From the IMG/VR virus record IMGVR_UViG_3300024341_000072, positions 1 to 41,271 of that record: a DNA stretch of 41,271 nucleotides, one strand, 5' to 3'. This DNA is from a virus. Shown one piece after another: positions 1-41,271 of the stretch; positions within the stretch are counted from its first letter, which is position 1; each line of letters opens with the position of its first letter. Made by a program: the position numbers and the translations under genes. Below the pieces are notes generated by a model. That model saw only the letters and a list, made by a program, of their open reading frames with translations, had not been told where the DNA came from and did no database searches.

Positions 1-507
1 CTTGGTTCCTGACTTGATCCCAGATTTGATTCCTGACTTGACTCGTGACTTGATCATTGATTTGATCATTGACTTGATTCCAGATTTGATTCCAGACTTG
101 ATCCCCGACTTGATTCCAGACTTGATCATTGATTTGATTATTGACTTGATTATTGACTTGACTATTGACTTGACTATTGACTTGATCCCAGACTTGACTC
201 CAGATTTGATTATTGATTTTATTATTGATTTGATCTCTGATCTGATTATTGACTTGATTATCGACTTGATCACTGACTTGATCACTGACTTGATTCCAGA
301 TTTGATCATTGATTTGATCTCTGATCTGATTCCAGACTTGATCATTGATTTGATCTCTGACTTGATTCCAGATTTGATTATTGACTTGATCCCAGACTTG
401 ATTCCTGATTTGATCATTGACTTGATTCCAGATTTGATTATTGACTTGATCCCAGATTTGATTCCTGACTTGACTCGTGACTTGATCATTGATTTGATCA
501 TTGACTT
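1..507 (-). repeat. 12-bp tandem array encoding Q-(V/I)-x-(N/D/S), left arm
   Basis: About 42 units of 12 bp. On the minus strand each reads CAA, then GTC or ATC, then a variable codon (AAT, TGG, AGG, AGA, AGT, GAT, GGG or ACG), then AAT, GAT or AGT. The block gattcctgacttgactcgtg occurs near both ends of this arm and again at the inner edge of the right arm. Bases 1-105 equal 40829-40933. Beyond that the arms stay broadly colinear but differ by substitutions and by gains or losses of whole units. Confidence 0.95.
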
Positions 508-757
508 TTAATTCTTTATCTTTCAAAATTTTAAAAATTTCAGTAATAAAATTAAATGCGAATTGAGCAGCTAGTGGACTATTTACTATTATCTTGAATT
601 TTGGTGGTGGTAGGTTTACCAATGAATATAACCAATCTATCCCATCTTTAAGATTTTTTTCGTTGTATTCACCATTGCTATTAAGTGCTCTATCTATCCA
701 TTTATTTCTGATTATTTCAATTTGTTTTTCCTGTTCTTCGTTTAATTTTTCAAGCAT
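1..757 (-). CDS. DUF6745-like tandem-repeat protein, N-terminal part (cut by window end)
   Basis: The ATG at 757 is preceded by GGAGG and overlaps the upstream stop as TAATG. The first ~83 residues form a helical domain (LNEEQEKQIEIIRNKW near the start, NSPLAAQFAFNFI near its end). From about residue 84 the protein becomes a four-residue repeat, Q-(V/I)-x-(N/D/S), that runs off the window. Recalled DUF6745 proteins of cyanobacteria have this layout: EEQ...KW N-terminus, SQLxSQL-type repeats, then a globular C-terminus. The matching C-terminus sits at 40182-41271. Laying position 1 on 40829 keeps the frame, giving a single protein of roughly 470 residues. Function is unknown. The plus-strand reading (PDLIPDLI) and the IKSGIKS reading are shadow frames. 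Confidence 0.82.
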   Translation of the reverse strand, partial: MLEKLNEEQEKQIEIIRNKWIDRALNSNGEYNEKNLKDGIDWLYSLVNLPPPKFKIIVNSPLAAQFAFNFITEIFKILKDKELKVNDQINDQVTSQVRNQIWDQVNNQIWNQVNDQIRNQVWDQVNNQIWNQVRDQINDQVWNQIRDQINDQIWNQVSDQVSDQVDNQVNNQIRDQINNKINNQIWSQVWDQVNSQVNSQVNNQVNNQINDQVWNQVGDQVWNQIWNQVNDQINDQVTSQVRNQIWDQVRNQ

Positions 758-6055: not shown

Positions 6056-8046
6056 TTTATCCCCTTCCAGTATTTGTTAATAGCATTACGCTTCTTTTTA
6101 CTATCATATACCTTAGCATCTTCCCCTGCATTTGTCATTAAACCGTTAAAAATAACCTTAAACTCCTTTTTTACCTGACCAGCATATTTCCAGTTAGCCA
6201 TGTTATCTACCCAATATTTCGATCCTTGGAGCTTTAAAGGGGCATCAGGGTGATAATCAAGGGTTGTTTCAAAGATATACCAAGCATCTCCCTTACCTTC
6301 CAACTTAGTTCCCTTGACGTCATCCTGGGATAGCCATACGACTGGATAGGAATGATATCCGAAGTTAGTCGGGCCAACTGAATTGAATATTTCATTAGCA
6401 GGAACCCCCAATGCTCTACATGAATCTACAAAGATGATCGTTCCGTCCTCACATTGATGAGATATAATACCATTTCTGAATACAAATGTATGTGTATGTG
6501 CCACTTCAAAATCTCTAAATTCAGTTTCTTCTAAATCTTCAATATATGAAATCGAGACCTCACTAATGTCATTATACCCATAATCAGTAAGAAAATGGCT
6601 CTTTGAATTGTAAGTTAATCTCCAAATAGGATGCCTTCCGACTCCTTTATGGTCTTCTTGTTTCCATGTATGGAAACTAAATCCCAATCTTAATGCTATA
6701 ACTTGTAAATCCTTAGCCAATTGTTCAGAACTTGTAGAAAGTACATATTCTTTGTTATATTGATTCTTACCACAATTTTTAGTCCCATCTCCTAGATAAT
6801 ACCCATCTAATATTTTTTGCAGTTTATTCTTAGGTAAATTTAGGTATTTCTGTGGGATATGACCAGAAAAACTCATACTTGCGACTCCTTTAAATTCAAA
6901 CAATAATTCTTTAAACCAAGATTTTAGAAAATTGATGATCGGAACTCCACTATTATTTATTCTTTCTGAGAATGGGATGCCTTCTCTTTCTAAAACTGGG
7001 ATTATTTCTTCTATTATATCATATCCAGAAGTTTCAACATTAGATCCATTAATAGATCCTTCTGCTAGAAAATGACCAATAACAAAACATAATTCTTCTT
7101 TTAATTCTGGAATATCAACTTCCTGATAAGGAATGTTTTTTGCTGTTGGTACTTTTCTTTTCCACCATCTGCCCAGATCAACATCTTTCAATGCAATTTT
7201 TTCATATCGTGATTCTTTCTGTGTAACTCGAATCCACAACGGATGATCTTCAGTAATATCAATATATTGCCCATTTCTAAAATGAACTCGTTTTGTCTTT
7301 AATATACCCTTTTCCCATATATTAACTATTGGTTTATAACAAAATAATTTAGAATCAAAATCATAGGATAATACTTCATCTCCTAATTTAAGATTTGCCA
7401 CTTGTTTAATTCCATCTTTCGTATAAATCTCTTCATAATTAGCTATACAATCAAACTTCTTTCGTAACAAAGAAACTATATGCGGAAGCCAATTATCTGG
7501 ATTATCCGCTTGATATGTTCCTGCATCTATCACAAAATACCATGCTTTCATAAGTTTCTCATATTTCGATAGCTTGCGATTCTCGTAAACATTCAACGAG
7601 TCATTAAGATAACTTGATTGTGTGTATATGTGTCTTGGATTCTGCATCGAATATCCTTCTGATGTGCCACCTATCTGTATCCAAGGCTTATAAGCTGACT
7701 TTGTTTCGTCTAACCATTCAGGGCATATAGTAACTATTTCACCCTGCATAGCTAATGATGTCTTTAATGACTCTATTGTCTCATTCTTATTCCTTATGGT
7801 ATCGGCATACCTAATATTATTTTCAGCTAATTCCGCCTGCAAATCTGTTACAGCATCTTCCAAACTACTTATTTTAGTGAGCTTTTCTTGCTCTGATTTC
7901 TGTAAGTTATAGAACATGGCATCTGCTGCTTTCAATCGTGCAAAGTAACTTTGTTCTCGTCCAAGACAAAGATCAAGATCGTTTTCCAATGCTGCTTCTT
8001 TACACCCCAACAACTTCTTTATACTAGCAACCAAATCAAAAGACAT
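6052..8046 (-). CDS. transglutaminase-like cysteine protease or amidase of the tail, interrupted by an intein
   Basis: Extein parts: residues 1-199 (coiled coil at about 45-100, then a globular part) and 532-664. Once joined they read FDCEDGTIIFVDSCRALGVP, the active-site motif of transglutaminase-like proteins, with Cys532 nucleophile, His565 (GYHSYPVVWL) and Asp597 (FETTLDYHP) as the triad. Residues 200-531 are an intein. The spliced protein would have 332 residues. Transglutaminase-like enzymes cleave or form amide bonds; in a tail operon the likely target is the host envelope or a virion protein. It overlaps both neighbours by 4-11 nt, and the gene before it is a second, smaller protein of the same type. 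Confidence 0.85.
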   Translation of the reverse strand: MSFDLVASIKKLLGCKEAALENDLDLCLGREQSYFARLKAADAMFYNLQKSEQEKLTKISSLEDAVTDLQAELAENNIRYADTIRNKNETIESLKTSLAMQGEIVTICPEWLDETKSAYKPWIQIGGTSEGYSMQNPRHIYTQSSYLNDSLNVYENRKLSKYEKLMKAWYFVIDAGTYQADNPDNWLPHIVSLLRKKFDCIANYEEIYTKDGIKQVANLKLGDEVLSYDFDSKLFCYKPIVNIWEKGILKTKRVHFRNGQYIDITEDHPLWIRVTQKESRYEKIALKDVDLGRWWKRKVPTAKNIPYQEVDIPELKEELCFVIGHFLAEGSINGSNVETSGYDIIEEIIPVLEREGIPFSERINNSGVPIINFLKSWFKELLFEFKGVASMSFSGHIPQKYLNLPKNKLQKILDGYYLGDGTKNCGKNQYNKEYVLSTSSEQLAKDLQVIALRLGFSFHTWKQEDHKGVGRHPIWRLTYNSKSHFLTDYGYNDISEVSISYIEDLEETEFRDFEVAHTHTFVFRNGIISHQCEDGTIIFVDSCRALGVPANEIFNSVGPTNFGYHSYPVVWLSQDDVKGTKLEGKGDAWYIFETTLDYHPDAPLKLQGSKYWVDNMANWKYAGQVKKEFKVIFNGLMTNAGEDAKVYDSKKKRNAINKYWKGIK
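6454..7449 (-). mobile_element. LAGLIDADG intein inside the catalytic-Cys codon context
   Basis: 332 residues. Starts with Cys (CIANYEEIYTKDGIKQVANL, block A). Block B is ITEDHPLWI with T265 and H268. Two LAGLIDADG helices are FVIGHFLAEG (321-330) and ILDGYYLGDG (412-421). Blocks F and G are VAHTHTFVFRNGIISHQ. The last residue is Gln, not the usual Asn, and the +1 residue is Cys532. C-terminal Gln is a known minority variant that can still cyclise. The endonuclease motifs look intact, so the element may still home. Confidence 0.92.
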
Positions 8047-35158: not shown

Positions 35159-36418
35159 TCAATCGTCCGATTCAGTAGGTTCTAATTCTTTATCTACATT
35201 AAATTCCCTGTTTAGACACTTTATAACTGCATTTGGTTTTAGTTGTTTGTATCTTTTCAGAATAACAGAAACATATAACGGATCAATCTCGATTCCAACA
35301 CATTTTCTGTTTAGTTGATCTGCCGCGACTAGAGTTGAGCCTGAACCTAAGAATGGATCGTATATGAGATCGTCTTTTTCTGAATAATCTCGTAGAATAG
35401 CGTATAATAGACCAACTGGCTTTTGGGTTGGATGAACCCGCTCTAAAAGTTCAACATCTCGCTTTCCTTCTCTTAATAAACCTGCCCAGAGATGACGATA
35501 CACTTTGACTGTTTTTTTGTCTTTGATATTTGTCCAGACTAACTCTGCATCGGAGAATGTATCTTCTAATCCTCCTTCTGGTTTTTTATCCCAAACTAGC
35601 CAATGAGAATTGTTTGGTAGTTTTGCCGCAAAGTGGTTTCCACCAAAAATAAACTGTTTTTTTCCGTATTTGAGTAGGAATGATGGATCAAAACCTTTAT
35701 CATCCCCTATTACTGGTCTATAATGTCTAGCTTCTACAATACCGTCTCCACCGATGGAGGCGGTACGTTTAAAACCGACTTTAGTGGAACCGCCGATGGT
35801 TCCGCTAACATTTACTATATTGATTCCGTATGGAGGATCTGTAAGAAGAATTTGGATTTCTTCTGTTAATTCTACTTTAGTGCTATCTGCACAATAAATC
35901 TTATGTTTTCCGTCTATCTCAAAAATATCCCCTAATTGAATGTTTGTATGTTCAACTTCAGGTGGTGGGGGATCGTCAAGTGGAGGGGGATCGATTAGTT
36001 CGTCCATGTCTAGATTAAGGTTTGTTATTTCTTTCATGTCATTTAGATCTAGTTCAAAATCCTGGGTAAATTCTTGTAATCCTTCGTAAGTGATAGCAGC
36101 ATATTGGCTATTATAGGTAAGTATTAATTCACCAGCTTGTTTTTTGTTGTCTGCTTCTATTTCGACATAAGGAAGATAATTTCCATTTTCTATTGTGTGA
36201 CCTTCTTTAAGCAGTTCTTTTATACAGATTAAACGTTGATGCCCATCCAAGATGGAATTTTTCCAGATGAAAATAGGTGCGTTAAATCCATTTCGAAGTA
36301 TTGATTGTTTTAACTTTTGTTTGCCTTCTTTGCTTAATGATTTTAGGTTACCTTGAAAACTCTCAAATTCTTGGACTCCTTTAAGTTTGCAGTCCTTGAC
36401 TCGAATCTTTATTTCCAT
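35159..36418 (-). CDS. ParB-like domain fused to an N6-adenine/N4-cytosine DNA methyltransferase
   Basis: 419 residues. N-terminal ParB/Srx-like domain (PIFIWKNSILDGHQRL, DGHQRL at 58-63). A Pro/Asp linker (about 143-155) leads to a beta-class methyltransferase: catalytic DPPY at 194-197 precedes the cofactor motif DPFLGSGST at 354-362. A Gly-rich insertion follows DPPY. Such proteins protect virus DNA from host restriction or act in partition-like regulation; here the place beside the terminase suggests methylation linked to packaging. Full-length and not interrupted. Confidence 0.9.
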   Translation of the reverse strand: MEIKIRVKDCKLKGVQEFESFQGNLKSLSKEGKQKLKQSILRNGFNAPIFIWKNSILDGHQRLICIKELLKEGHTIENGNYLPYVEIEADNKKQAGELILTYNSQYAAITYEGLQEFTQDFELDLNDMKEITNLNLDMDELIDPPPLDDPPPPEVEHTNIQLGDIFEIDGKHKIYCADSTKVELTEEIQILLTDPPYGINIVNVSGTIGGSTKVGFKRTASIGGDGIVEARHYRPVIGDDKGFDPSFLLKYGKKQFIFGGNHFAAKLPNNSHWLVWDKKPEGGLEDTFSDAELVWTNIKDKKTVKVYRHLWAGLLREGKRDVELLERVHPTQKPVGLLYAILRDYSEKDDLIYDPFLGSGSTLVAADQLNRKCVGIEIDPLYVSVILKRYKQLKPNAVIKCLNREFNVDKELEPTESDD

Positions 36419-37209: not shown

Positions 37210-37566
37210 TTATACCTCTATCTTGTTCCACTCTGCTTCTTTCCATACTTTATTTTTTCCCCTTCCAGTATATCGTCCTTTATCCCAGAGCCAAAGCTGG
37301 AATATCATTCCATCAAAACCATAAACATCCTTAAATGCCTTAATTTCCCTTTGATGCTCAAGATAGTAGTTTCCCTGGTTTAGGTGCTTTACTGAAATAA
37401 ATAACCAAATCTTGCCTTTACAAGCAACTATGTCAAATAATTGGGCAAAATCCACACACCCAAATCTAAACCTTACTGATTTGAATGCTACAAACCATCC
37501 ATTTTTTCTTAACTGATCCCTTGCTAACTTTTCCTTTCTGTAACCCTTACTAACAGTTTCAACCAT
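37210..37566 (-). CDS. PD-(D/E)xK nuclease, Holliday-junction-resolvase-like
   Basis: 118 residues. The order SKGYRKEKLARDQLRKNGW (N-terminal helix with a Glu), FDIVACKGKIWLFISVK (Asp, then S-x-K in place of E-x-K) and a C-terminal helix is the Hjc/VRR-like PD-(D/E)xK pattern. Ser at the usual Glu position is a known kind of variation. A resolvase would clear branched DNA before packaging. The ATG at 37566 forms TAATG with the stop of a 37-residue ORF; a slightly longer start is possible. Confidence 0.7.
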   Translation of the reverse strand: MVETVSKGYRKEKLARDQLRKNGWFVAFKSVRFRFGCVDFAQLFDIVACKGKIWLFISVKHLNQGNYYLEHQREIKAFKDVYGFDGMIFQLWLWDKGRYTGRGKNKVWKEAEWNKIEV

Positions 37567-37679
37567 TATCCAACCCAATTCTCATCATCTTCAAGGTCAA
37601 TAAACATTATCTCTGCAATCTCTATCCCATAATTCTTAAAGAGCATATTAATCTTCAGTTCAGGTTGTTTATTTTTCAT
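37566..37679 (-). CDS. 37-residue protein
   Basis: Starts MKNKQPELKINMLFKNYGIE and ends in an acidic tail (FIDLEDDENWVG). Its ATG overlaps the preceding stop (ATGA) and its TAA overlaps the nuclease ATG (TAATG), so both borders are coupled, which supports translation. Not recognised. Confidence 0.5.
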   Translation of the reverse strand: MKNKQPELKINMLFKNYGIEIAEIMFIDLEDDENWVG

Positions 37680-37903
37680 AACATCATCTCCTTAACAACG
37701 TTAATATCTTCCATCAATTCTTTACTGAAAACCCCAATCGTATTCAATGTGAAAACATATTCAAACTTAAATTCTTCAGGATATTTTGTCTGTAAAAGAT
37801 AGACTATGTTTTTCATTGTACGTCTGTCCTGATAAGACAATGGACTAAGATGACAATATGAAAATAACCACTTCAACTTATCGATTTTTTCTATTCTGTT
37901 CAT
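37676..37903 (-). CDS. hypothetical small protein
   Basis: 75 residues, helical (NRIEKIDKLKWLFSYCHLSP, YQDRRTMKNIVYLLQTKYPE), not recognised. Start overlaps the stop of the 20-residue ORF upstream and stop overlaps the 37-residue ORF. Part of a string of four overlapping small genes. Confidence 0.62.
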   Translation of the reverse strand: MNRIEKIDKLKWLFSYCHLSPLSYQDRRTMKNIVYLLQTKYPEEFKFEYVFTLNTIGVFSKELMEDINVVKEMML

Positions 37904-37962
37904 AAGTCATCCTCGTCGTTTTGAAATCCTTCTGCTCCACGTTCTAAGTACCAAAGATTCAT
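37900..37962 (-). CDS. 20-residue microprotein
   Basis: Starts MNLWYLERG and ends in an acidic tail (NDEDDL). GAGGTGAAAAC-ATG is one of the strongest ribosome sites in the window and begins inside the stop codon of the repeat gene upstream. The TGA overlaps the next ATG. The same stop/ribosome-site junction lies before the histidine-motif gene at 40172. Confidence 0.5.
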   Translation of the reverse strand: MNLWYLERGAEGFQNDEDDL

Positions 37963-37971
37963 GTTTTCACC

Positions 37972-38772
37972 TCAGGTTTCAATAATTGGAGTATAGCTTT
38001 CCTCAGTTTCTCCAAATGTCCATGCTATTGCTCCGAGACAGGTTTTAGTTTGGTCATTTATCGGAACTCCTAGAAAGGTTTTTTTATGCGTCGAATGGTC
38101 TTCTACCGAGATTACTCTGGCATTTAGCGTATCTGACAGCTTAAATTCAAGAACTTGATAAGTACACATCTTATCTGTTACTTTGGATTTGCAATGGTAT
38201 GTATCAATTATTTTGGCGTTGGCTTCCTGTATGATTGCATCATAGCCATATTCCTTGATCAAAACGGCTTTTTTTTCAGTGTTATCACACCCCAAAATAT
38301 CTTGAGCAGTTAAGCTTTTTTCTATGAATGCAGCTACATAACTTATTTTCTGGAATGAAACGTTATCTTGTTTCATATAGAGATCGCCATTGCCATCGCC
38401 ATTGCCATAGCCATAGCCATTGCCATAGCCATTGCCCTTGCCATCGCCATCGCCATTGCCATAGCCATAGCCATTGCCATCGTCATCGCCATTGCCATAG
38501 CCATTGCCATCGCCATAGCCATCGCCATTGCCATAGCCATCGCCATAGCCATCGCCATTGCCATTGCCATAGCCATAGCCATTGCCATAGCCATAGCCAT
38601 TGCCATTGCCATTGCCATTGCCATAGCCATAGCCATTGCCATAGCCATTGCCATCGTCATCGCCATTGCCATTGCCATAGCCATAGCCATTGCCATAGCC
38701 ATTGCCATAGCCATCGCCATAGCCATCGCCATAGCCATCGCCATTGCCATCATCTACGATTAGAGTTTCCAT
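37972..38772 (-). CDS. Gly-(Asn/Tyr/Asp) repeat protein with DUF6745-related C-terminal end
   Basis: 266 residues. After METLIVDD about 123 residues alternate Gly with Asn, Tyr or Asp. The remaining ~135 residues are globular (YVAAFIEKSLTAQDILGCDN; KEYGYDAIIQEANAKIIDT; HKKTFLGVPIN). The very end, C-x-x-A-I-A-W-T-F-x(4)-E-x-Y-x-P-x-IET, matches the end of the protein at 40182 (C-x-x-A-V-S-W-T-F...Y-x-P-x-IET), so both share the C-terminal domain but carry unrelated arrays. Recalled phage proteins with similar G-D/S/Y arrays lie beside DUF6948 genes, as here. Function unknown. Confidence 0.8.
   Translation of the reverse strand: METLIVDDGNGDGYGDGYGDGYGNGYGNGYGYGNGNGDDDGNGYGNGYGYGNGNGNGNGYGYGNGYGYGNGNGDGYGDGYGNGDGYGDGNGYGNGDDDGNGYGYGNGDGDGKGNGYGNGYGYGNGDGNGDLYMKQDNVSFQKISYVAAFIEKSLTAQDILGCDNTEKKAVLIKEYGYDAIIQEANAKIIDTYHCKSKVTDKMCTYQVLEFKLSDTLNARVISVEDHSTHKKTFLGVPINDQTKTCLGAIAWTFGETEESYTPIIET
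38386..38753 (-). repeat. 6-bp tandem array encoding G-N/Y/D
   Basis: About 61 units of 6 bp; plus strand GCCAT followed by T, A or C. The unit codes Gly plus AAT, TAT or GAT. Nearly all variation is confined to that one base; exceptions are two tcgtcatc units (DDD) and one Lys. The reverse and shifted readings (MAMA, IAIA, HCHS) are by-products. Confidence 0.95.
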
Positions 38773-39044
38773 CGTTTCACCGATAATAAATTTTCTCTAG
38801 CTTCTTCGGAACAGGGGATTATTTGGAAAACATCTTTCAATCTCATTATTGGTACTGAGATGGAGAATTTGCATTGATCTGGTTTTTTTACACCTTCCAT
38901 AGCCAATTGGGATAAGCTGGCAGCTCCAGAATAGTACCAAAGACAAAAACAGTCTTCCAGTTCTACTTCCTTGTTATTTTCCTTAATTAAATATCCTGCA
39001 TAAACTCCCGCAGGGCCACGTGCTATAACAAATTCTTTTTTCAT
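38760..39044 (-). CDS. DUF6948-like protein
   Basis: 94 residues: VIARGPAGVYAGYLI, then CFCLWYYSGAASLSQLAMEG with KKPDQCKFS, then a C-terminal VFQIIPCSEEARENL. The core LWY(Y/W)xGAASLSQLAMEG...PxxCKF is how I remember DUF6948, found in phages and bacteria next to glycine-repeat proteins; I could not check this. It is stop-start overlapped with the repeat gene by 13 nt, so they are coexpressed. Function unknown. Confidence 0.72.
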   Translation of the reverse strand: MKKEFVIARGPAGVYAGYLIKENNKEVELEDCFCLWYYSGAASLSQLAMEGVKKPDQCKFSISVPIMRLKDVFQIIPCSEEARENLLSVKRWKL

Positions 39045-39052
39045 AATTTCAC

Positions 39053-39355
39053 CTAATCCATTACTTGTCTTATTACACCAAGAAGATCTACTTCTCTTTG
39101 TTTGACCATGACGTATTTACCTTTTTTAACTGTTATTTGCTGATGTTCTTTGTGAGTAAGTTTGGCTGTATTTGGAACATAAATTTGAATTTGACCGTTA
39201 TCTATTTCGAAAAAAACAACTCCGTTGCCAGTTAAAATATGCTTATGGCCGGTTGAACTTCCTTCTGCCAAAACTCTTTTTGTTTTCCCTATTTGTTTTC
39301 CTGTTATCTCTTCTATTTCTTTAAGGAGTATATCTCCTTGTCGATATTGTTTCAT
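39053..39355 (-). CDS. small histidine-motif protein B (TGHxH / LTHxEH)
   Basis: 100 residues of all-beta type. Conserved blocks: RQGDILL at 5-11, LAEGSSTGHKH (His37, His39), LTHKEH (His68, His71), KGKYVMVKQRE, and RQVMD at the end. The four His in HxH and HxxEH-like settings suggest a metal site in a cupin-like or barrel fold. It is a paralog of the protein at 39876. Family members that I recall stand next to DUF6745 genes in cyanobacteria. Ribosome site GGTGAAAAC. Function unknown. Confidence 0.72.
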   Translation of the reverse strand: MKQYRQGDILLKEIEEITGKQIGKTKRVLAEGSSTGHKHILTGNGVVFFEIDNGQIQIYVPNTAKLTHKEHQQITVKKGKYVMVKQREVDLLGVIRQVMD

Positions 39356-39377
39356 GTTTTCACCTATCCTCTATTAT

Positions 39378-39578
39378 TTAATCGCATATACCTTCTATAA
39401 CTTTAATTTCATTCGGTTGAAAAATACTTCCGTCATCACAGGATACTAATAGATTACCAAATTGGGTATAATATCTACAATTACATAATGTTTTATTTTC
39501 AATTATTATTGCGTCTTTTTTTGGTGTTGTACAACCAAATAACAAAAAAATCAACAACATACAAATGATTATTTTCAT
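39378..39578 (-). CDS. small lipoprotein
   Basis: 66 residues. Signal with lipobox LLFGC (Cys at about 16) followed by TTPKK, the same FGCTT start as the lipoprotein at 1803. The mature part has CNC and later Cys residues (LCNCRYYTQFGNLLVSCDDG). Preceded by GGTGGAGAA. Likely held on the outer membrane face; a small surface or exclusion factor is possible. Confidence 0.72.
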   Translation of the reverse strand: MKIIICMLLIFLLFGCTTPKKDAIIIENKTLCNCRYYTQFGNLLVSCDDGSIFQPNEIKVIEGICD

Positions 39579-39636
39579 TTCTCCACCTCTCTAAGACAAC
39601 GGCCATCTGACACAAAACTTGCTCTGCTCAAATTGT

Positions 39637-39861
39637 TCAAGGACTTGCACTTATTCTAAGCATTCTAGCATACTTCTGATTTTCACAACCTTCTAACTTA
39701 CATATCTCTCCGTTGTTGATTTCATTACACCAACCATCCAAAATATCTGCCATTTCAAGGAGACACTGACGATAGTGTTCTTCTTTTTTTATACAACCAC
39801 ATAATCCTCTTAGAGATTTGCAATCATGACAATCCATTGGAGGTTTCTTTCCTAATTTCAT
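39637..39861 (-). CDS. Cys-rich small protein
   Basis: 74 residues with eight Cys (MDCHDCKSLRGLCGC, QCLLE, WCNEI, ICKLEGCEN), enough for two zinc or several disulfides. No signal peptide, so zinc is more likely. Located between the two histidine-motif genes, inside the repeat-protein module. Not recognised. Confidence 0.65.
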   Translation of the reverse strand: MKLGKKPPMDCHDCKSLRGLCGCIKKEEHYRQCLLEMADILDGWCNEINNGEICKLEGCENQKYARMLRISASP

Positions 39862-39875
39862 TTAACCATCTTCCA

Positions 39876-40172
39876 TTAATCCAATACTTGTCTATTGGCT
39901 TGTGGAGAATATTCCCTTTGTCTTATCACTGCATAAGTTCCTTTTTCCAATTCTATAGATTTGTGCTCTTCGTGAGTTAATACTACTGTTTCTTCTACTT
40001 CAAAATATTTCTGTTGCTGAACTTGATATACCTTGGATCTTCCTTCAAGCTTATGTGCATGCCCAGTAACTTCCCCTTCAGCAAGAATGTTTGTATCTAC
40101 GATCTTTGCATCGTTTGGTAACCCATCTATCCTTACTATCAACAAATCCCCATGCCGTACCATATTCTTCAT
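39876..40172 (-). CDS. small histidine-motif protein A (TGHAH / LTHEEH)
   Basis: 98 residues: RHGDLLIVRIDGLP, ILAEGEVTGHAHKLEG (His38, His40), VVLTHEEHKSIELEKGTY (His67, His70), VIRQREYSP and final RQVLD. Same block order as the protein at 39053, so a duplicated pair. The start GAGGTGAAAAC-ATG is fused with the stop of the DUF6745-like gene (TGAGGTGAAAACATGAA), showing tight coupling between the two. A metal-binding or sugar/nucleotide-binding barrel is plausible, but no activity is known to me. Confidence 0.75.
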   Translation of the reverse strand: MKNMVRHGDLLIVRIDGLPNDAKIVDTNILAEGEVTGHAHKLEGRSKVYQVQQQKYFEVEETVVLTHEEHKSIELEKGTYAVIRQREYSPQANRQVLD

Positions 40173-40181
40173 GTTTTCACC

Positions 40182-41271
40182 TCAAGTTTCTATTTCTGGT
40201 TTATATTCCTCTTTATTCAGGACAAATGTCCAAGAAACGGCAGACATACAATCTATGATATTGGTATCTTTTGGGTCAACTCGCAATAGGACTTCTTTCC
40301 CAGTTGATGGACATTTGACTTTGACAAATTTTGCTGGGACATCGTCGTCTTTCATATCAACTGAAATAAGTTGGTAATCCCCGTCAGTATGAAGAATATT
40401 AGCTCCAAGTTCCCTAATTACATTTTCATATCCTATCTTGCGCATTGCTATGGTGCGTTGTTCAACATTTCTTAGGTTGACCGCTTCATCCGAAGTTAAT
40501 TTTTTATCTCTAATTTTTTCAAAAATATCTTTACCAAACCCTACGCCCTCAATGAAATAGTTTTCTGTTCCATCGAGCCACTGAACCGCAGCTTCGGTAT
40601 TAGAATGAAGCCTATTATTCTGTTGTAAAACTTTAATTGGTGGGGTTATGATTATTACAACATTTTCAAATAGTATTGCATCCCAAAAACCTTGCTTTAT
40701 ATATGATTCATACTTTCTGAAGTTGTCTGTTAGTTTAATTCCTATGATTCCAAAATAATCGAAAAATGCTAACCATCCTGAATCCCAACTCAATCCCCGT
40801 GAAAGAAAATTTATATATTGACTTCCGACTTGGTTCCTGACTTGATCCCAGATTTGATTCCTGACTTGACTCGTGACTTGATCATTGATTTGATCATTGA
40901 CTTGATTCCAGATTTGATTCCAGACTTGATCCCAGACTTGATTCCTGATTTGATCATTGACTTGATTCCAGATTTGATTATTGACTTGACTATTGACTTG
41001 ATCCCAGACTTGATTCCAGACTTGATCATTGATTTGATTATTGACTTGATTATTGACTTGACTATTGACTTGATCCCAGACTTGATCATTGATTTGATTA
41101 TTGATTTTATTATTGATTTGATCTCTGATCTGATTATTGACTTGATTATCGACTTGATCACTGACTTGATCACTGACTTGATTCCAGATTTGATTATTGA
41201 TTTGATCTCTGACTTGATTCCAGACTTGATCATTGATTTGATCTATGACTTGATTCCAGATTTGATTATTG
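40182..41271 (-). CDS. DUF6745-like tandem-repeat protein, C-terminal part (cut by window end)
   Basis: Continues the Q-(V/I)-x-(N/D/S) frame from the window edge to 40821 and then, without a stop, into a globular domain of ~210 residues: SWDSGWLAFFDYFG, RLHSNTEAAVQWLDGTENYF, VGFGKDIFEKI, RTIAMRKIGYENVIRELGAN, VKCPSTGKEVLLRV, CMSAVSWTF and the end KPEIET. These blocks match what I recall of DUF6745 C-termini (RLH...AxxxxDG, GxGY..I..EL, CPSTG). The ORF starting at a TTG at 40793 is only the unrepeated part. Gene body joins 1-757 on a circular map. Confidence 0.83.
   Translation of the reverse strand, partial: NNQIWNQVIDQINDQVWNQVRDQINNQIWNQVSDQVSDQVDNQVNNQIRDQINNKINNQINDQVWDQVNSQVNNQVNNQINDQVWNQVWDQVNSQVNNQIWNQVNDQIRNQVWDQVWNQIWNQVNDQINDQVTSQVRNQIWDQVRNQVGSQYINFLSRGLSWDSGWLAFFDYFGIIGIKLTDNFRKYESYIKQGFWDAILFENVVIIITPPIKVLQQNNRLHSNTEAAVQWLDGTENYFIEGVGFGKDIFEKIRDKKLTSDEAVNLRNVEQRTIAMRKIGYENVIRELGANILHTDGDYQLISVDMKDDDVPAKFVKVKCPSTGKEVLLRVDPKDTNIIDCMSAVSWTFVLNKEEYKPEIET
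40821..41271 (-). repeat. 12-bp tandem array, right arm
   Basis: About 37 units of the same kind as at 1-507. 40829-40933 is identical to 1-105. Later stretches, such as the one with gattttattattgatttg, occur in both arms in the same order but at shifted spacing, with 12-bp indels and point changes. Two versions of one array, not simple end overlap. Confidence 0.93.

Follow-up and report, generated by a model that had tools for sequence, protein, structure and literature searches.

The IMG/VR virus record IMGVR_UViG_3300024341_000072, a stretch of 41,271 bases (the window hereafter), encodes two copies of a two-gene pair that also occurs in bacteria, in which a DUF6745 protein (Pfam PF20530) stands with a protein of about 100 residues carrying a TGHxH motif. 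Seen from the TGHxH side, these genes form a near-obligate adjacent pair, and arrays of units of two to four residues are a phage feature of the DUF6745 proteins. We tentatively read the window copies as two bacterial-type pairs on a phage, with the arrays marking a phage-diversified recognition protein that would act with a partner of the metal-binding type.

The DUF6745 and TGHxH proteins

DUF6745 gene A (40182..41271, minus strand) encodes a C-terminal DUF6745 domain and the right-hand part of a tetrapeptide array ([ND]-Q-[VI]-x), and gene B (37972..38772, minus strand) encodes a Gly-X array and the DUF6745 core only. Both match PF20530 above its gathering cut-off of 27 bits (gene A, 40182–41270, 53.9 bits, E 1.9e-14; gene B, 37972–38772, 37.9 bits, E 1.5e-9), neither at full length (positions 37–206 and 96–206, respectively, of 206). 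An earlier note on this DNA had called one repeat protein DUF6745-like and had given both the same C-terminal domain, which these matches confirm, and had proposed that they share a closing motif, which indeed reads AVSWTF...YKPEIET and AIAWTFG...YTPIIET. The gene B product has the C-terminal 110-residue core without the N-terminal domain and is a core-only family member. The window proteins thus keep the PF20530 core and its C-terminal [EQ]-[TSA] ending, which is present in 142/143 DUF6745 copies (near-duplicates included; gp38 of the Mycobacterium prophage prophiGD102-1 is an exception), but phage members differ from the Pfam family in bearing short-unit arrays, and gene B differs in spanning only positions 96–206; the Pfam entry is without a function.

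The two small proteins, TGHxH protein A (98 aa, 39876..40172, minus strand; the partner of gene A) and TGHxH protein B (100 aa, 39053..39355, minus strand), align over their full length at 36–38% identity, and both match PHROG 27831 (E 3.9e-11 and 1.2e-10, respectively), an entry that records neither partner nor function. The description of two histidine-motif proteins sharing all blocks therefore holds. No convincing Pfam or NCBIfam match was found for the family members tested, which are recognized by a profile match together with the RxGD, TGHxH, H..[ED]H, and final D motifs. Invariant or near-invariant positions are R, GD, TGHxH, H..H, and the final D, and a C-terminal Asp ends 178/178 complete copies (near-duplicates included); across all TGHxH types together, the aligned sequences differ too much for patterns to be scanned. 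Conserved His, Asp, and Glu residues are present, and of these the invariant histidines, with the aspartate at the C-terminus, are suggestive of a metal site. The AlphaFold model of TGHxH protein A is all-beta (predicted local distance difference test, pLDDT, 85.9), and a Foldseek search with it against the PDB gave no match (best E 1.2). At one locus (L128), an HNH/endonuclease VII-like gene (6321–6950) lies between the TGHxH and DUF6745 genes, and the tail of the TGHxH protein recurs at the C-terminus encoded by this intervening gene (REYTPEAVRNVAD); the arrangement looks as if a homing insertion had restored the TGHxH gene at its 3′ end.

Distribution and linkage of the pair

A TGHxH profile search yielded 80 bacterial and 80 viral loci, and pairing was counted, where the flanks were readable, as a DUF6745 core within 2.5 kb (one further bacterial locus was N-masked). 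A core was present near TGHxH at 74/74 bacterial and 53/55 viral loci, invariably on the same strand; the two viral loci without one are L139, which has the DUF6745 N-domain only, and L175. Because some of the viral contigs are near-identical, independent viral lineages are fewer than the loci counted. Among 50,697 phage records, the same 11 contain both TGHxH and DUF6745, and these comprise nine Microcystis phage, one spring-water siphovirus, and one Mycobacterium abscessus prophage. In the window, the genes of the first pair are on the same strand and 13 nt apart, and those of the second are on the same strand with a DUF6948 gene in between. The earlier note had named two outcomes that would speak against its module, namely no co-occurrence of array proteins with TGHxH or DUF6948-like genes in unrelated genomes and no detectable similarity between the two C-terminal domains; for the pair we found the opposite in each case, since the genes are adjacent as well as co-occurring and the domains are homologous. 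Distances between TGHxH proteins and between DUF6745 cores are correlated (Mantel r = 0.75, 54 viral loci), indicating co-inheritance, which physical linkage alone could produce.

Two deposited genomes illustrate the range of the pair, which they annotate as hypothetical proteins. In Microcystis phage Ma-LMM01, gp175 and gp174 follow the order of TGHxH then directly DUF6745, but gp174 has no array. In Mycobacterium phage prophiGD102-1, gp37 and gp38 are a TGHxH protein and a DUF6745 protein with a 46-unit [GD]QL[WRG] array, differing in a GC-rich unit, a QL backbone, and a diverged gp38 C-terminus (HRR). A literature search found no paper naming DUF6745 or DUF6948, and queries on the repeats likewise returned nothing relevant.

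The genes beside the pair bear on where it might act. Viral neighbors include integrases, HNH nucleases, RecE/Erf recombinases, and single-stranded DNA-binding protein, a mixed set of early genes rather than virion genes, and the pair therefore sits with early or DNA-metabolism genes. This location, together with the absence of a structural PHROG match and the presence of the array-free form in bacterial chromosomes, makes a virion or receptor-binding protein very improbable, even though adhesins commonly contain hypervariable repeats. Cyanobacterial neighbors are also mixed, with topoisomerase I only among close relatives, and a constant gene neighborhood was rejected on both the viral and the cyanobacterial side. 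On Streptomyces, Methylobacterium, and Deinococcus plasmids (L023, L024, and L027), the pair lies beside genes of the STM4011–STM4015 families (radical SAM, hydrolase, leucine-rich repeat [LRR]). One Obscuribacterales genome carries seven DUF6745 copies.

Short-unit arrays in phage DUF6745 proteins

In a census of DUF6745 proteins long enough to judge, an array was present in 41/50 viral and 2/74 bacterial members (Fisher p = 1.6e-21). The two array-bearing bacterial loci adjoin HNH, DnaD-like loader, or primase-like genes and look prophage-borne. In hosts, the middle segment is instead globular (Streptomyces, cyanobacteria) or composed of LRRs (Deinococcus, Methylobacterium, a planctomycete, and some cyanobacterial members); two cyanobacterial proteins (L228 and L235) are apparently fused to LRRs. 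The phage units are four residues long (e.g., [AD]SV[WRG], [AD]QV[WRG], [AD]NL[WRG], SAA[RWE], and AAT[DRY]), three residues long (DAR/AAL/DAM), or, in window gene B, two residues long (G-[NYD]). The Gly-X array of gene B (38386..38750, minus strand) has 60 units of GGC followed by AAT (23), TAT (22), GAT (14), or AAG (1). The tetrapeptide array of gene A appears at both ends of the contig, with 36 units of 12 nt (19 distinct) at the right end (40836..41268, minus strand) and 41 units (21 distinct) at the left end (2..505, minus strand).

The contig breaks inside this tetrapeptide array. Window bases 1–105 are exactly identical to bases 40829–40933, and a region at the opposite end (2..757, minus strand) encodes the left-hand array part together with an N-terminal helical domain in which PPPKFKIIVNSPLAA fits the 'P..v..v.SP.a' motif of the DUF6745 family N-domain. 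Because of this N-domain at 757–2 and the identical ends, one unassembled array is most likely the source of both contig ends, and gene A, judged from its sequence, is most likely split across them. The same breakage recurs elsewhere: a contig end falls within 1 kb 3′ of TGHxH in 26/80 viral contigs (about 3 expected), with few exceptions in a repeat or at its border, and in 8/25 of these records, as in the window, the part encoding the missing DUF6745 C-terminus was located close to the other end of the contig, in matching orientation.

Variation between units was counted as common variants in 39 non-redundant arrays. There were 127 non-synonymous and 10 synonymous variants (7% synonymous, against a neutral expectation of 27%; p = 3e-9, a value that is optimistic because arrays may share ancestry). 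Within each unit, the variation mostly falls on one or two codons; the commonest variant pair is A/D, next come G/R, R/W, and G/W, and then L/R in three-residue units, and the same A/D and G/R/W choices recur on different backbones. The isolate-sequenced M. abscessus prophage prophiGD102-1 shows this most simply, as its gp38 has 46 copies of NGGGRCCAGCTC and, one unit excepted, variation in the 12-nt unit is limited to base 1 (T/C/G, encoding W/R/G) and base 5 (A/G, encoding D/G). Array length also changes in frame, by 171 bp between contigs that are 99.56% identical over ∼9.9 kb and by 36 bp between two others that are 99.6% identical. In four-residue arrays at 17 loci, the W/R/G letter is linked to the A/D letter of the following unit (p = 4e-4), with R before D and G before A favored and letters inside one unit independent.

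These patterns bear on whether the arrays arose by neutral slippage, with short repeats expanding in frame because they are harmless. Such an origin would account for the higher-order repeat blocks, the differences in copy number, and codons that are AT- or GC-matched in each phage, but we consider it improbable: it leaves the non-synonymous excess and the restriction of arrays to 41/50 viral as opposed to 2/74 genome members unexplained, and synonymous sites are nearly fixed while two codons are polymorphic, in the isolate as well. The suggestion of a hypervariable recognition device in the earlier note is compatible with the non-synonymous repeat variation, a fit at the level of sequence.

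Known sources of phage protein variation and known short repeats were also compared. Diversity-generating retroelements focus variation in a phage protein on a small number of codons; the arrays resemble their targets in this respect but differ in that variation lies among tandem units and extends beyond adenines. Reverse transcriptase was found in 0/43 array-type records, while control genomes were positive, and a retroelement target was therefore rejected. Pentapeptide-repeat proteins (PF00805) likewise have a short hydrophobic-centered repeat, similar to, e.g., A-N-L-x in L115, but the units here have four, three, or two residues, and AlphaFold suggests a helix rather than a beta-helix; neither a PF00805 match nor a five-residue period was found in the array proteins. 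NCBIfam matches to trigger factor, GvpQ, and XopL were below cut-off and were discarded as low-complexity or LRR artefacts.

Proposed function of the pair

In the favored reading, this phage bears twice a gene pair of bacterial type, encoding a DUF6745 protein and an all-beta TGHxH protein, that differs from host versions in the middle segment of DUF6745. The array would form an extended binding surface of repeated units, probably helical for the most part, whose diversity would arise from changes in copy number and from the mixing of a small set of side chains (A/D/G or N/D/S; W/R/G, L/R, and Y/N/D). Its binding partner would vary, a host factor, a defence component, or a rival element being the most plausible candidates, and the DUF6745 core would couple the array to the TGHxH protein, which may bind metal and could conceivably have catalytic activity. 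On this reading, the pair would work during early infection or in a prophage and would have no role in the virion. In the AlphaFold model of a full-length phage DUF6745 protein (L141), the N- and C-terminal parts are confident and the array forms long helices; Foldseek found no match for this model in the PDB (best E 0.59), although the long helices may have masked the core, and the search did not extend to the viral structure library.

Several observations weigh against this reading. The confidence of the L141 model within the array is about 50–84. Nine viral members, all LMM01-like, are array-free and keep the pair nonetheless. The arrays, with possibly shared ancestry, are not fully independent samples for the non-synonymous excess, and the array length differences rest on metagenome assemblies. 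PADLOC gave no credible defence-family match, its sole hit being a weak Cas12f match (E 3.8e-4) in a Deinococcus LRR member. A TGHxH gene is missing within about 1.5 kb of several cyanobacterial DUF6745 paralogues. Bacterial occurrence is sparse (Actinomycetota 6/199, Cyanobacteriota 18/194, Planctomycetota 5/199) and there is no constant genomic partner, neither of which hints at a function.

The pair could alternatively be a two-subunit metalloenzyme or housekeeping system in which the array is a spacer or oligomerization rod and its exact letters are irrelevant. This is the rival we take most seriously, though we hold it to be somewhat unlikely. It agrees with the presence, in Streptomyces and further actinomycetes, of single copies that lack an array, with the proximity of the pair to the STM4011–STM4015 radical-SAM/LRR cluster in Deinococcus, Methylobacterium, and Streptomyces, and with the freedom of unit length (two, three, or four residues) and backbone to vary. 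A pure spacer, however, predicts ∼27% synonymous unit variants where 7% were found, and a spacer leaves the recurring A/D and W/R/G choices and the phage specificity of the arrays unexplained. The phage copy could also be an anti-defence decoy that mimics a DUF6745/TGHxH complex of the host, titrating the partners of that complex, with the array blocking or redirecting the complex itself. DUF6745 is present in both hosts and phages, and the phage proteins retain the host N-domain and core, with the middle segment as the main difference; a decoy is nevertheless a long shot, since a TGHxH gene of the phage's own accompanies DUF6745 in almost every case, and what the phages keep is thus a complete pair and not a decoy.

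Relationship between the two window copies

The earlier note regarded the module as a duplication in which the array had been swapped, and this did not find support. The cores of the two window DUF6745 proteins are 32% identical, and the window TGHxH proteins and cores are each about as near to those of other phages as to each other. TGHxH proteins A and B (HisA and HisB) were sisters in 0/200 bootstrap trees, and the tree places HisB beside the protein of another phage (98/92); an approximately unbiased test leaves a HisA–HisB clade unrejected (p = 0.24), with long branches involved. A recent tandem duplication is thus unsupported, with the p-value leaving some room. A 26-nt stretch comprising the IET codons, stop, ribosome-binding site, and ATG (40168..40193, minus strand) is 92% identical to 37958–37983, and these shared gene ends are compatible with either history. 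The two copies represent either two different lineages or an old duplication.

Other genes of the block and window

The seven genes described in the earlier note do lie in a single block on the minus strand. Its extent of 37900–41271 is right as to the genes present and wrong at the 41271 end, as the first repeat gene continues at the other contig end. The DUF6948 gene between TGHxH protein B and DUF6745 gene B (38760..39044, minus strand) is correctly identified (PF22253, 66.3 bits), but its place in the module is not upheld: neither TGHxH nor DUF6745 occurs near DUF6948 at 6/6 independent loci elsewhere, and with this 0/6 co-occurrence it was rejected as a third component and judged a passenger. 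DUF6948 is carried by 0/249 Pseudomonadota genomes, a count that is uninformative on co-occurrence. The Cys-rich protein (74 aa, 39637..39861, minus strand) and the lipoprotein-like protein (66 aa, 39378..39578, minus strand), also counted as module parts in the earlier note, show no sign of belonging to it; they have no convincing relatives in Pfam and PHROG comparisons and are probably passengers.

A 20-codon open reading frame (MNLWYLERGAEGFQNDEDDL; 37900..37962, minus strand) immediately follows DUF6745 gene B, with its own ribosome-binding site and an ATGA overlap with the next gene. The window also encodes terminase, portal, minor tail, and ParB-methyltransferase genes; in the last of these (35159–36418), just upstream of the terminase genes, a ParB-like N-domain is fused to a DNA methyltransferase. 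A 122-aa protein (37210–37578) resembles, by eye, a Holliday-junction-resolvase-type nuclease.

Implications

Because the array breaks short-read assemblies, IMG/VR phages that carry it are linearised or truncated at the DUF6745 gene, and the feature is systematically under-seen. The pair connects phages with Streptomyces, cyanobacteria, Deinococcus, and planctomycetes, and both predicted folds are without a PDB match. It is present in at least 50 viral contigs, and near-purely non-synonymous variation at few codons, on differing backbones, calls for a reason at the level of the protein. On a bolder and rather doubtful extension of the favored reading, DUF6745/TGHxH with its array of two- to four-residue units would be an undescribed diversifying system in many phage lineages, a modular recognition code variable in copy number and in letters, recombined between units without reverse transcriptase, by which a conserved core may be aimed at ever-changing host or rival targets.

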